From contig NZ_CANLNH010000014.1 of NCBI RefSeq assembly GCF_947492535.1, forward strand, positions 1 through 64,000: a DNA stretch of 64,000 bases, written 5' to 3'. The notes beneath the pieces were generated by a model. It saw nothing but the letters and a program-made list of their open reading frames with translations, did no database searches and was not told the DNA's origin. Below, piece by piece: positions 45,986-49,630 of this stretch (positions are counted from its first letter, which is position 1; each line of letters opens with the position of its first letter). This DNA comes from an uncultured Dokdonia sp. Lineage in GTDB: Bacteria; Bacteroidota; Bacteroidia; Flavobacteriales; Flavobacteriaceae. A program made the translations under genes and the position numbers.

Positions 45986-46747
45986 CTACCGAATTGTCTT
46001 CACAAAATCTGCAACACTATTTGCTCCATGAGCAGAGATATGTTTTATAAATGCACTTCCGATGATGGCACCTTTCGCGAAAGCGGTAGCCGCCTGAAAC
46101 GTATCTGAATTACTAATGCCAAAACCAACAATTTGAGGATTCGTAAGATTCATAGCATCAATACGTTTAAAATAGTCAGATTGTGTGTTGCCAAAACCAC
46201 TTTGTGCTCCTGTTGTACTCGCACTACTCACCATGTATATAAATCCATTACTAGCAGCATCGATCTGTCTGATACGTTCATCACTGGTTTGAGGTGTGAT
46301 TAAAAACACATTTATCAATCCATGTTTTTCAAAAATCGTTTTGTATTCTGCTTCATATTCGGCGAGAGGGAGATCTGGCATAATAATACCGTCAATTCCA
46401 ATTGCTGCACAGGTAGCACAAAACTTCTCCACTCCATATTGCAGCATAGGATTAAAATATCCCATCACAATAAGTGGAATATCAATAGTTTTTCTGACAT
46501 CTTTCAATTGATCAAAAAGTAATTGTGTGGTCATTCCGTTTTTTAAGGCAGCCGTGCTGCTTTCTTGAATCGTTGGACCATCTGCTAATGGGTCTGAAAA
46601 AGGAAGTCCTATTTCTACCATGTCAACCCCACTATCTTGTAATTGCTGTAGAATAGACATCGTGTCATTAATAGCTGGATACCCAGCTGTAAAATAGAGA
46701 CTGAGTAATTTTTTATTTTCTTGGAGTTTTTGTTGTATTCTGTTCAT
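45986..46747 (-). CDS. trpA: Tryptophan synthase alpha chain
   Basis: A 253-aa TIM-barrel enzyme cleaving indole-3-glycerol phosphate to indole. LSLYFTAGYPAINDTMSILQ and MVEIGLPFSDPLADGPTIQE (catalytic Glu and Asp) and the phosphate-binding YMVSSASTTGAQSG and VGFGISN loops are visible. It is the last gene of the trp operon. Near its C-terminus an in-frame palindrome (TTTCGCGAAA, 46073-46082) encodes AFAKGAIIGSAF. A GIY-YIG element separates it from trpB. Confidence 0.95.
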   Translation of the reverse strand: MNRIQQKLQENKKLLSLYFTAGYPAINDTMSILQQLQDSGVDMVEIGLPFSDPLADGPTIQESSTAALKNGMTTQLLFDQLKDVRKTIDIPLIVMGYFNPMLQYGVEKFCATCAAIGIDGIIMPDLPLAEYEAEYKTIFEKHGLINVFLITPQTSDERIRQIDAASNGFIYMVSSASTTGAQSGFGNTQSDYFKRIDAMNLTNPQIVGFGISNSDTFQAATAFAKGAIIGSAFIKHISAHGANSVADFVKTIR

Positions 46748-46757
46748 GTATTACTAT

Positions 46758-47211
46758 TTTTTCATTTCCGCGAAGGCGGAAATCTTATTCTGTTTTACGC
46801 TTTCTTATGTTTTCGAGAAAACAGGAATTTATCTCTTTGTCTGGAAAAAATAAATTTTTCTCCTAATTCATTCTATCATCCAACTCAAATCATTCCAATC
46901 TGGATTCATAGTGTTAATTAAATTTTCTTTCCACTCACGATTCCATTTCTTAATTTGTTTTTCTCGTTTTATAGCATTATTTACATATTGGTTAGTTTCA
47001 AACCAAACCAGTTTAGTGACATTATATTTTTTAGAAAAACCTTTTGAACTTGTATATGTATGTTGCTTTAATCGTTGTTTTAAATTATTAGTGAAACCAA
47101 TATATAAAACAGTATGTCCTTTATTTGTGAGGATATATGTGTAAAATGTATCAGTTTCCATACACTTTTAAGTGTGGTTGTTTGGATTTCCGCCTTCGCG
47201 GAAATGAAAAA
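46758..47211. mobile_element. GIY-YIG gene bounded by perfect inverted hairpin repeats
   Basis: ATTTCCGCGAAGGCGGAAAT at 46764-46783 and its exact complement ATTTCCGCCTTCGCGGAAAT at 47186-47205 bound the GIY-YIG gene. The two copies are reverse complements over about 27 nt including flanking A/T. The unit of about 454 bp fills almost the whole gap between the trpB stop (47222) and the trpA start (46747). Each end is itself a near-palindrome (a REP-like hairpin). A second hairpin-like stretch (TTTTCGAGAAAA) lies near 46814. Confidence 0.7.
46868..47161 (-). CDS. GIY-YIG nuclease-domain protein, copy 1 (between trpB and trpA)
   Basis: A 97-aa protein that is only a GIY-YIG domain. Motifs: YTYILTNKGHTVLYIGFT (GIY-YIG tyrosines), NLKQRLKQH (catalytic Arg) and AIKREKQIKKWNREWKENLI (Glu and Asn). 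Single-domain members (UPF0213/YhbQ-like) are common in Bacteroidetes with no assigned role. It sits between trpB and trpA inside inverted REP-like hairpins. It is about half identical to copy 2 at 48594-48893, with an almost invariant C-terminal segment (KKWNREWKENLI). Confidence 0.88.
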   Translation of the reverse strand: METDTFYTYILTNKGHTVLYIGFTNNLKQRLKQHTYTSSKGFSKKYNVTKLVWFETNQYVNNAIKREKQIKKWNREWKENLINTMNPDWNDLSWMIE

Positions 47212-47221
47212 GTTTTAAATA

Positions 47222-48421
47222 TTACAATTTAAAATACTCGATATATGTATTCAAATCCTTATCTCCACGTCCTGACAGATTAATCACAATAACATCATCG
47301 GGTTTAAACTTTCGCTCTTCAAATATAGCGAGTGCATGACTCGTCTCTATGGCAGGAATAATCCCTTCTAGTTTACTTAATTCAAGACCTGCTTGCATAG
47401 CATCATCATCAGTTATGGAGATAAACTCTCCGCGACCTGTTCTAAATAAATTTGCATGCATAGGACCAACGCCTGGATAATCCAATCCTGCCGAAATAGA
47501 ATACGGTTCTGTAATCTGTCCGTCGGGTGTTTGCATTAAGAGCGTTTTACTTCCGTGTATGATCCCTTCGCGACCTAACGCCGAGGTAGCTGCACTTTCG
47601 CCTGTATCAATTCCTTTTCCAGCAGCTTCTACTGCAATAATACCTACTTCTGGCTGATCTAAATAATGATAAAAAAGACCCGCAGCATTACTTCCGCCTC
47701 CTACGCAAGCCACTACATAATCAGGATTTTCACGTCCTTCAACTTCCTGTAATTGTTTTTTTGTCTCTTCAGAAATCACCGATTGAAAACGAGCCACCAT
47801 ATCTGGATACGGATGTGGTCCTACGACAGATCCTATAATATAGTGTGTGTCTACTGGATTATTAATCCAATCGCGTATCGCTTCGTTTGTGGCATCTTTA
47901 AGCGTTCTACTTCCAGACATAGCAGGACGTACAGTAGCGCCAAGCATTTTCATACGCGCTACATTGGGTGCTTGTCGTTCTATATCAATAGCGCCCATAT
48001 ATACAATACATTCTAATCCCATTAAAGCACAAACCGTTGCTGTAGCCACACCATGTTGTCCGGCGCCTGTTTCTGCAATGATTCGGTTTTTTCCTAATCG
48101 TTTGGCCATTAATATTTGACCAATCGTATTATTTACTTTATGAGCTCCCGTATGACATAAATCTTCTCTTTTTAAATAGATTTTTGTATTGTACTTTTTA
48201 CTGAAGCGTTCTGCATAATAGAGTGGCGTAGGGCGTCCTACATAATCCTTTAGTAGTTGATTAAACTCCTTTTGGAAAGAAGGTTCTTGCATGATTTGCA
48301 CATACTGAGAACGTAATTCTTCTACATTTGGATAGAGCATTTCAGGAATGAAAGCCCCTCCAAAATCACCGTAATATCCTCGGTCATCTGCTTGGTAGTT
48401 AGTTTGTGGTTCTGTAATCAT
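47222..48421 (-). CDS. trpB: Tryptophan synthase beta chain
   Basis: A 399-aa PLP enzyme joining indole and serine to tryptophan. [20 protein letters not shown] is the start; the PLP lysine lies in [20 protein letters not shown] (about residues 87-106). [20 protein letters not shown] is the phosphate-binding loop, and [14 protein letters not shown] the C-terminal signature. Length is normal. Gaps on both sides are filled by REP-like hairpins and GIY-YIG genes. Confidence 0.96.
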
Positions 48422-48433
48422 AATTTCATTTTT

Positions 48434-48540
48434 ATTTCCGCGAAGGCGGAAATCTTACCCACCTTAACGTTATGTTAGTTTCTCGTCCTTGCCTGCCTGC
48501 AGGGACACGAGAAATGTCTTGAATTGCGAAGGCGGAAATC
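48434..48540. repeat. Tandem REP-like hairpin modules downstream of GIY-YIG copy 2
   Basis: ATTTCCGCGAAGGCGGAAAT (48434-48453) is followed by CTTACCCACCTTAACGTTAT and a second hairpin (TTCTCGTCC...GGACACGAGAA, about 48479-48512). A second partial copy GCGAAGGCGGAAATC (48526-48540) is followed by the same CCTTAACGTTATGTTAGTTT segment. The module thus has an internal structure of hairpin, conserved linker and second hairpin, like a BIME. Confidence 0.75.
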
Positions 48541-48593
48541 TTATCTACCTTAACGTTATGTTAGTTTCCCGTTTTCACAGGAAATGTTTGTTT

Positions 48594-48893
48594 TTAGAGC
48601 ATCCAACTCAAATCATCCCAATTTGGATTCTTATCATTGATTAGGTTTTCTTTCCATTCTCGATTCCATTTTTTAACTTGACGTTCTCTTATTCTAGAAT
48701 CTTTTACGGTTTTAAATGTTTCAAAATAGATTAATTTATCAAGGTTATATCTACTCGAAAAACTTTTTTTATAAACTTTGTCTTTATGTTCTTTTATGCG
48801 TTTTTTCAAATTGACAGTAAAGCCAATATATAAAACTTTGTTGTACGTATTTGTCATCATATAAAAGTAAAATTGTTCTTCTACGAATTCCAT
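48594..48893 (-). CDS. GIY-YIG nuclease-domain protein, copy 2 (between trpF and trpB)
   Basis: A 99-aa single-domain GIY-YIG protein: YFYMMTNTYNKVLYIGFTVN, NLKKRIKEHKD and RERQVKKWNREWKENLI keep all catalytic positions. It is clearly homologous to the copy at 46868-47161. It lies 5 nt from the trpF stop codon and is flanked on the left by two REP-like modules and on the right by a REP-like hairpin that is inside the trpF reading frame. Confidence 0.88.
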   Translation of the reverse strand: MEFVEEQFYFYMMTNTYNKVLYIGFTVNLKKRIKEHKDKVYKKSFSSRYNLDKLIYFETFKTVKDSRIRERQVKKWNREWKENLINDKNPNWDDLSWML

Positions 48894-48898
48894 TTTAC

Positions 48899-49630
48899 TT
48901 ACACTTTTTCATTGATGAGTCTTCCGCCTTCGCGGAAGTGGTTTTGAAATTCTTGTAGCGCTGCTACATTTTTCTGTCCAGGCGTATCTTCAAACTTGCT
49001 ATTTACATCGAGTGCAAGAATAGGAAGATCGGTTGCTAGGATTTCTTTTATGTTGTCTATCTCTTCCAATCCAATACCACCACTTAAAATAAAAGGGGTT
49101 TTAGATGGGTATTTTTTTAAAACACTCCAATCAAAGGTATATCCGTTACCACCTTTTTCTTTTCCTTTGGTATCAAATAAAAAGGCATTTACAGTTCCTT
49201 CATAAGGTGTAAGTCTATCAAAATCAAAAGTGTCTTTAATGGAGAATACTTTCCATACTTCAACCCCTTCCGTCTTCACTTCCTGTGAAGACACCTTCCC
49301 CTGTTTAGGGGAAGGAGCTAAAAGTTCTTGTATATATTCAGGAGATTCGCTTCCGTGTAATTGGATGATGTCTAAATTGTATTTTTCAATGTGCGCTTTC
49401 GCGAAAGCAATATCAGCATCTACAAATACGCCTACTTTTTTTATATTTTCTGGAAGCGTTACTATCTCTCCATCATAATTACGCGGACTCTTCTCATAAA
49501 ATATAAACCCAAGATAGTCTGGTTGCAATGCAGCGACTTCTTGTGTGTTGTATTTCATTCCGCATACTTTGAGTCTCACGGAAGTAGGAGTCTCATGCTC
49601 CTGAGTTGTATGTTTATGATTTTTTGACAT
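48899..49630 (-). CDS. trpF: Phosphoribosylanthranilate isomerase with palindromic insertions
   Basis: A 243-aa TIM-barrel isomerase, longer than the usual about 200-210. RLKVCGMKYNTQEVAALQPD (catalytic Cys), YLGFIFYEKSPRN, LDIIQLHGSESPEYI and FILSGGIGLEEIDN, then LALDVNSKFED, are the standard motifs, so function is likely retained. The extra length coincides with palindromic DNA: AFAKA (49393-49408); a segment of about 22 residues in the middle (49272-49315, two adjacent hairpins); and a C-terminal HFREGGRLINEKV encoded by a REP-like hairpin (48921-48938). It overlaps the upstream PH-like gene by 17 nt. Confidence 0.92.
   Translation of the reverse strand: MSKNHKHTTQEHETPTSVRLKVCGMKYNTQEVAALQPDYLGFIFYEKSPRNYDGEIVTLPENIKKVGVFVDADIAFAKAHIEKYNLDIIQLHGSESPEYIQELLAPSPKQGKVSSQEVKTEGVEVWKVFSIKDTFDFDRLTPYEGTVNAFLFDTKGKEKGGNGYTFDWSVLKKYPSKTPFILSGGIGLEEIDNIKEILATDLPILALDVNSKFEDTPGQKNVAALQEFQNHFREGGRLINEKV

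Follow-up and report, generated by a model that had tools for sequence, protein, structure and literature searches.

Small GIY-YIG nuclease genes paired with REP hairpins in the trp operon of an uncultured Dokdonia and in other bacteria: putative REP-plus-nuclease elements

We identified two small GIY-YIG nuclease genes, both bracketed by inverted copies of a repetitive extragenic palindromic (REP) hairpin, in the trp operon of an uncultured Dokdonia sp. (Flavobacteriaceae; contig NZ_CANLNH010000014.1, positions 1 to 64,000 of the forward strand, hereafter the window). A sequence-only reading of the window had proposed a RAYT-like system at this site. The partnership of hairpin and GIY-YIG gene recurs in the genus, in the class and in distant bacteria, and on these comparisons the pairing is well supported; the hairpins themselves are more widespread, as most of those in the genome lie away from any GIY-YIG gene. 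We consider it reasonably probable that the units are REP-plus-nuclease elements, in which a REP family and its own GIY-YIG nuclease form a RAYT-like partnership that would spread by cutting and host repair. The pairing is read directly from the flanks; cutting and mobility are what we infer.

Gene 1 (46868–47161, minus strand, 97 residues) lies between trpB and trpA, and gene 2 (48594–48893, minus strand, 99 residues) between trpF and trpB. Both are REP-type genes found in the list of open reading frames (ORFs), and both match the Pfam family PF01541 (E 3.9e-16 and 2.6e-14, respectively). The sequence ATTTCCGCGAAGGCGGAAAT occurs on the plus strand 3' of gene 1 (46764–46783) and 3' of gene 2 (48434–48453, assigned by sequence match and fold), and its exact reverse complement lies on the minus strand 5' of gene 1 (47186–47205), so that the gene 1 pair are perfect reverse complements as first described. 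A fourth copy, CTTCCGCCTTCGCGGAAG, is located 5' of gene 2 (48921–48938, minus strand) within the 3' end of trpF. The claim that gene 2 is flanked by the same hairpins holds for the 48434 and 48921 copies; however, a third element at 48526–48540 (plus strand) is only half a copy, consisting of the loop and right arm, and begins a repeated hairpin-spacer unit. From hairpin to hairpin the gene 1 unit measures 442 bp within a trpB-trpA gap of 474 bp (46748–47221), rather than the 454 bp first given.

The surrounding genes, all on the minus strand of the ORF list, are trpF (48899–49630), trpB (47222–48421), which separates the two units, and trpA (45986–46747), downstream of the gene 1 unit; these names are presumed from the earlier reading and general knowledge rather than from a family search. 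The C-terminus of TrpF in the window is formed by a REP. At two other loci of the genus (L114 in genome G010 and L117 in G001) trpF and the GIY-YIG gene are a single open frame of 315 and 322 residues, respectively, and at the G010 joint REP-derived codons could be recognized by eye. The two-hairpin unit at 48434–48593 resembles an array in locus L018, where units of approximately 101 bp (about positions 1501–1716) contain the window hairpin and then a second hairpin, GTTTCCCGTCTTTACAGGAAC.

The four copies in the window each form an isolated DNA hairpin, with folding energies of -8.1 to -8.4 kcal/mol and z-scores from -3.8 to -5.0. Allowing up to three mismatches to a 16-mer, the window contains 11 sites compared with a mean of 0.13 in shuffled sequences, and none of 100 shuffles reaches 11; the four exact sites among the 11 are identical with the four copies described above. 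The copies at 46764, 47186 and 48434 share the stem ATTTCCGC and the loop GAAG; in the 48921 copy the stem is 7 bp long. The former three have the stem of 8–9 bp starting with A-T pairs and the loop of 4–5 nucleotides of the CGTC REPs, and both window pairs are inverted, as in the inverted dimers of these REPs. The stem and loop fit this published superfamily, which Di Nocera et al. (2013, PMC3733652) describe from five phyla, a match that the sequence-only reading did not note; the tag differs. Two of the four copies (46764 and 48921) receive a terminator-like score, on the plus strand and therefore opposite to the trp transcript, and a reading of the hairpins as terminators alone was rejected. 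Within the window the hairpins are confined to the trp operon, as the sequence-only reading had it. Extended to the whole genome this statement is ruled out, as there are 15 sites with at most one mismatch, 11 of which are away from GIY-YIG matches. The genome has ten PF01541 matches, eight of them in short frames, including the two trp genes. Another palindrome, TTTCGCGAAAGCGG, is found at window positions 1778, 27132, 46073, 50345 and 58152, in two cases (46073 and 50345) inside long ORFs.

Tyr, Tyr, Arg, His and Glu columns of the encoded proteins are invariant in alignments of 11 sequences (A1, built from genes at loci whose flanks had already been read) and 42 sequences (A2), and the GIY-YIG active site, whose catalytic residues are among these columns, is intact. 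Gene 1 ends in a C-terminal sequence of the form W.REWK..LI..NPxWxDL. With a confident AlphaFold model of gene 1 (mean pLDDT 89.3, pTM 0.83), Foldseek places the UPF0213 structure 1zg2 first (E 1.8e-4), followed by Slx1 of Slx1-Slx4 (E 0.013, probability 1.00), which is a branched-DNA nuclease. By sequence the nearest structures are 1zg2, 1ywl and UvrC, and the four proteins compared with NCBIfam all stayed below the cut-offs of its models.

The trp site was compared across a sample of 18 genomes of the genus, 14 of which yielded a full trpB locus in a TrpB search and were all read; three had no or weak TrpB matches, and a partial locus in G007 was left out. A GIY-YIG gene occupies the trpB-trpA gap at four of the 14 loci (G000, G009, G016 and G012), each time with a hairpin directly 5' of it. 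The hairpin in G016, TTTCCACGAAGGTGGAAA, shows a compensated stem change, and the orthologous trp-site copies of G009 and G016 carry a TGTC tag and a CC tail. In a trpB tree the nearest neighbour of each filled genome is empty. In particular G011, the closest relative, whose TrpB is 98% identical to that of G000, has the left and right hairpin positions of G000, with the left hairpin decayed and a short spacer between the two; the GIY-YIG ORF between them is present only in G000. Empty and filled alleles of one site are therefore at hand among relatives, where the earlier reading had suggested looking for them. Together with the patchy presence of the gene, this pair leads us to infer a system that may be mobile or hairpin-maintaining, as originally put forward. 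Comparison around the filled trp sites for co-conversion gave a mosaic pattern. The sequence GCTTTCGCGAAAGC is also present in trpB-trpA gaps of relatives.

Divergence between the G009 and G016 genes (dN/dS, nonsynonymous over synonymous divergence, 0.045/0.223, or 0.20) shows purifying selection on the protein in this one pair. The synonymous divergence of the GIY-YIG genes (0.22, over just 96 codons) is lower than that of trpB in the same genomes (0.683), which hints at transfer, with the reservation that the codons are few. Trp-type GIY-YIG genes, as judged by reading, are found in six of the ten genus genomes with the hairpin TYCCGCGAAGGCGGRA, whereas all eight genomes without it lack them; several of these genomes are incomplete.

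The association extends to other small GIY-YIG genes in the genus. We collected 57, comprising frames of up to 165 residues and the two trpF fusions; longer frames, presumably of UvrC and exonuclease types, were excluded. Their flanks contain many different palindromes, or tRNA genes. A repeat match of score 20 or more between the 5' and 3' flanks was found for 31 of 53 genes (four lacked a flank); of the 524 ORFs in the same DNA that served as controls, 12 reached this score (P 2e-27), and short control ORFs gave 3 of 103. A simple GC-rich hairpin lies within 250 bp of 17 of 23 genes in the NPxW class (both sides in 8) and 15 of the 30 remaining genes (both sides in 6), compared with 79 of 521 control ORFs (both sides in 6).

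Small GIY-YIG genes of a second class, without the NPxWxDL tail, occur at tRNA genes. ARAGORN places a tRNA within 300 bp of 15 of the 57 genes; these are 15 of the 35 other small genes, compared with 0 of 22 with the NPxWxDL sequence. The members (L086, L087, L088, L096, L097, L104, L108, L118, L119, L120, L121, L124, L128, L130 and L133) often have a partial tRNA copy on the opposite side, as seen by eye, and are sometimes in tandem. A third group (..WSR.KKEAL..; L090, L093, L099, L112 and L123) has long direct copies of large palindromes on both sides, with flank match scores of 49 to 107.5.

Similar units were identified in distant bacteria. A tblastn search of plasmid records returned 35 records, 16 of which were read. 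By eye, CGTC-type palindromes are present on both sides at 12 of the 16, for example in Sinorhizobium meliloti, Azospirillum lipoferum and Shinella, with off-consensus variants in L135 and L147; the Photobacterium locus has one on one side, L138 and L144 have a different palindrome, and the Radiobacillus locus has a YazA-like gene and no palindrome. We then examined the best 80 of at least 571 confirmed stretches, many of them from metagenome bins, chosen by protein similarity to A1 alone; the flanks of 75 were usable and those of five were not. A strict detector (GTC, perfect stem of at least 7 bp, loop of 3–7 nucleotides, within 350 bp) found a hairpin on any side of 65 of the 75 loci and on both sides of 39, compared with 35 and 6 of 322 control ORFs; small control ORFs had both sides in 1 of 80. 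This detector missed mismatched outer pairs and long loops. A relaxed detector, tuned after those misses had been read, found GTC-tagged hairpins within 350 bp on any side of 71 of the 75 and on both sides of 53, compared with 68 and 6 of 311 control ORFs. The enrichment of GIY-YIG genes near the hairpins anticipated by the sequence-only reading is thus borne out with either detector.

The three bases that precede the hairpins at the 80 loci, counted on both strands, are most often GTC (149 of 440), followed by TGG, equivalent to a CCA tail (125 of 440); TAG occurs 18 times. Copies of a canonical YGTCA...TCCA type are present at many of these loci. When other tags were substituted in the relaxed detector, the loci with a match on any side, out of the same 75, numbered 54 for CGT, 46 for CTG, 27 for TCG, 24 for TTG, 18 for GCT, 12 for CAG, 8 each for TGC and AAC, and 7 for GAC, and control ORFs ranged over the ten tags from 34 to 68 of 311. 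The CGT and CTG counts probably represent GTC hairpins shifted by one base in register.

The gene was also found at E 1e-20 or better in 22 of 70 evenly drawn genomes of the class. Outside G000, 32 class loci were fetched, one lacking a flank and two being a tandem duplicate at one place; flanks are shared at 23 of 31, compared with 0 of 40 controls. Units of this kind also occur inside conserved operons of unrelated bacteria. Three lie between sufB and sufC (L145, L146 and L369; one annotated, two judged from the flanks), and L302, L296, L297 and L301 were assigned to sucC-sucD, odhB-lpdA and hisH-hisA operons by reading only. The REP-type GIY-YIG gene of a Planktothrix plasmid (L134) has an MmeI-like restriction gene on one side and the DISARM gene drmA on the other.

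The palindromes are specific to the locus. REPs on the two sides of a locus differ by a mean of 1.05 mismatches, compared with 6.5 when permuted (0 of 20,000 permutations), and by two or fewer in 36 of 40 loci, and REPs differ from locus to locus. In five genomes with two or more loci each (15 loci), the difference is 1.6 within a locus and 8.7 between loci (1 of 20,000 permutations); because the match within a locus fails between loci of one genome, the agreement of the two sides exceeds the genome background. In the commonest layout (26 of 40 nearest pairs) the 5' REP is forward and the 3' REP reversed, with the CCA tails toward the gene, and the window agrees with this orientation.

As a control within genomes, the A1 model was applied to 22 named genomes, selected so that the index locus has a strict REP in 14 of them and none in 8. 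It returned 45 full-length matches (E below 1e-25) and 22 others, the latter a mixed set that includes YhbQ-like genes, some longer frames and three truncated pieces of REP type; two of these 22 had no flank. The strict detector found hairpins at 23 of the 45 full-length genes (13 on both sides) compared with 1 of the 20 others with a flank, and the relaxed detector at 35 of 45 (26 on both sides), compared with 25 and 1 of 132 control ORFs. For the other GIY-YIG frames the relaxed count was 5 of 20 against 12 of 59 controls. The 23 full-length genes away from the index loci gave 15 on any side and 11 on both (one, L267, is also among the 80). Canonical REPs among the others are seen only at the truncated REP-type pieces L309, L319 and L323 (L319 lacks a flank); the remaining 18 with a flank gave three matches, none of them a canonical REP, so that YhbQ-like and other GIY-YIG proteins have hairpins only at chance level. 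Five genomes were chosen for a count on the ground that the index locus carries a strict REP; they contain 74 exact REPs in about 21 Mb, and five of eight full-length genes are within 350 bp of one. Of the 48 exact REPs in a Nitrospinae bin (G043), 28 are arranged as 14 inverted (+,-) dimers with 98–127 bp between partners and with spacers that look related by eye, and its GIY-YIG gene lies between one such dimer and another REP.

We propose that the enzyme, which in fold most resembles UPF0213 and the Slx1-type structure-specific nucleases, would cut its cognate hairpins once these are extruded or single-stranded, in a manner selective for both the structure and the sequence of the cognate REPs. 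Host repair templated by another REP copy could then spread the hairpins, and sometimes the gene too, as in homing. GIY-YIG enzymes hydrolyse DNA without rejoining it, so RAYT-style strand transfer is unlikely. The nuclease might instead serve CGTC-type REPs as RAYT serves GTAG REPs, by cutting and host repair rather than by Y1 transesterification. More broadly, we see an even chance that REP-type GIY-YIG proteins are the missing dedicated enzymes of CGTC REPs, including the neisserial dRS3, and give them a homing-like spread in many phyla independent of RAYT. Among the matches listed from open-licence PMC literature, subscription papers and preprints being outside the search, none links GIY-YIG proteins to bacterial REPs, and no paper there joins GIY-YIG with 'repetitive extragenic palindromic' or with dRS3.

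Several observations weigh against REP-plus-nuclease elements. In the window itself the CGTC tag (or TGTC or CCTC) is absent from all four copies, being replaced by TTTC in both copies around gene 1 and by TTTT and AACC in the others, and the CCA tail is found only in the copy at 47186–47205, where it faces the gene; the tails elsewhere are CTT (46764–46783), CTT and CTC. None of the 70 class genomes, G000 included, contains a strict CGTC-1 pattern, and the GIY-YIG associations there therefore depend on other palindromes. No simple GC-rich hairpin lies within 250 bp of six of the 23 NPxW-class genes in the genus, and for 10 of the 45 full-length genes the relaxed detector, too, finds no hairpin with a GTC tag. 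Most hairpins in the genus are far from any GIY-YIG gene, and trp-type genes are missing from four of the ten hairpin-bearing genomes (the fragmentary G007 as well as G011, G015 and G017). Patchy presence at the trp site could reflect repeated loss, and the protein-REP Mantel correlation of 0.33 is uncorrected for phylogeny.

The chief alternative, which we consider less likely, is that the GIY-YIG genes are freestanding homing genes that land in pre-existing REPs spread by something else. The genomes with REPs and no trp-type gene would be expected in that case, as would the empty G011 site, which already has both REP positions, and REPs are reportedly targets of insertion sequence (IS) elements (PMC1525189). 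The class of small GIY-YIG genes at tRNA genes likewise indicates that the superfamily is able to settle at structured sites. However, each GIY-YIG locus has a REP variety to itself, also where the genome contains other varieties, and the REPs on its two sides match each other, mostly in inverted orientation, rather than being the halves of one split REP. Moreover, Di Nocera et al. (2013) name no dedicated transposase for CGTC REPs (PMC3733652), to which we add that other candidate enzymes were not searched for.

It is improbable, in our view, that the protein is a structure-specific housekeeping nuclease, kept beside its substrate, for the trimming or resolution of cruciforms formed by REPs. 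The weak structural similarity to Slx1 and the purifying selection in one pair are compatible with such a role, but the gene is patchily distributed and missing from the corresponding trp site of G011, and the different REP variety for each gene within one genome argues for co-evolving pairs. Independent gathering of REPs and small genes in intergenic gaps, with adjacency as mere background, was rejected as very unlikely: REPs are mostly intergenic and hairpins lie near some control ORFs (68 of 311 in the relaxed count, unmatched for gap length), but neither control ORFs from that DNA nor small ORFs nor other GIY-YIG frames show the pairing, and the five genomes in which REPs were counted contain few of them.

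If the units are REP-plus-nuclease elements, many small genes annotated just as 'GIY-YIG nuclease family', among them the confirmed stretches counted above, would gain a role. Each CGTC REP variety would have a testable candidate enzyme of about 95 residues, cognate pairs within single genomes could be used for the study of specificity, and the pairs would represent a minimal natural combination of nuclease and target.

The closest known proteins by fold are UPF0213 (YhbQ and YazA), which share the domain and the structure typified by 1zg2. However, they lack the C-terminal NPxWxDL extension and the association with REPs, and the YazA-like gene of L149 lies in a row of housekeeping genes with no REPs. 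Freestanding GIY-YIG homing endonucleases, such as the phage Seg proteins, are a second point of comparison; the GIY-YIG domain, the empty and filled alleles and the intergenic position are shared, whereas the units described here are known from sequence and are tied to dispersed REPs rather than to one fixed target. The CGTC REPs (PMC3733652) have in common with three of the four window copies a stem of 8 bp that begins with A-T pairs and a loop of four bases, and with the trp-site copies of G009 and G016 the TGTC tag and CC tail. They differ in that no dedicated transposase is reported for them in that paper, whereas a GIY-YIG gene is paired with the hairpins here, and the window copies do not have the tag. 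The RAYT (TnpA_REP) systems are similar in organization, with a small enzyme gene between its own inverted REPs and, as in G043, REPIN-like non-coding REP dimers elsewhere in the genome. However, the enzyme here belongs to the GIY-YIG family PF01541 rather than to the HUH Y1 transposases, GTC rather than GTAG is the prevailing tag, and the chemistry would be hydrolysis followed by host repair.

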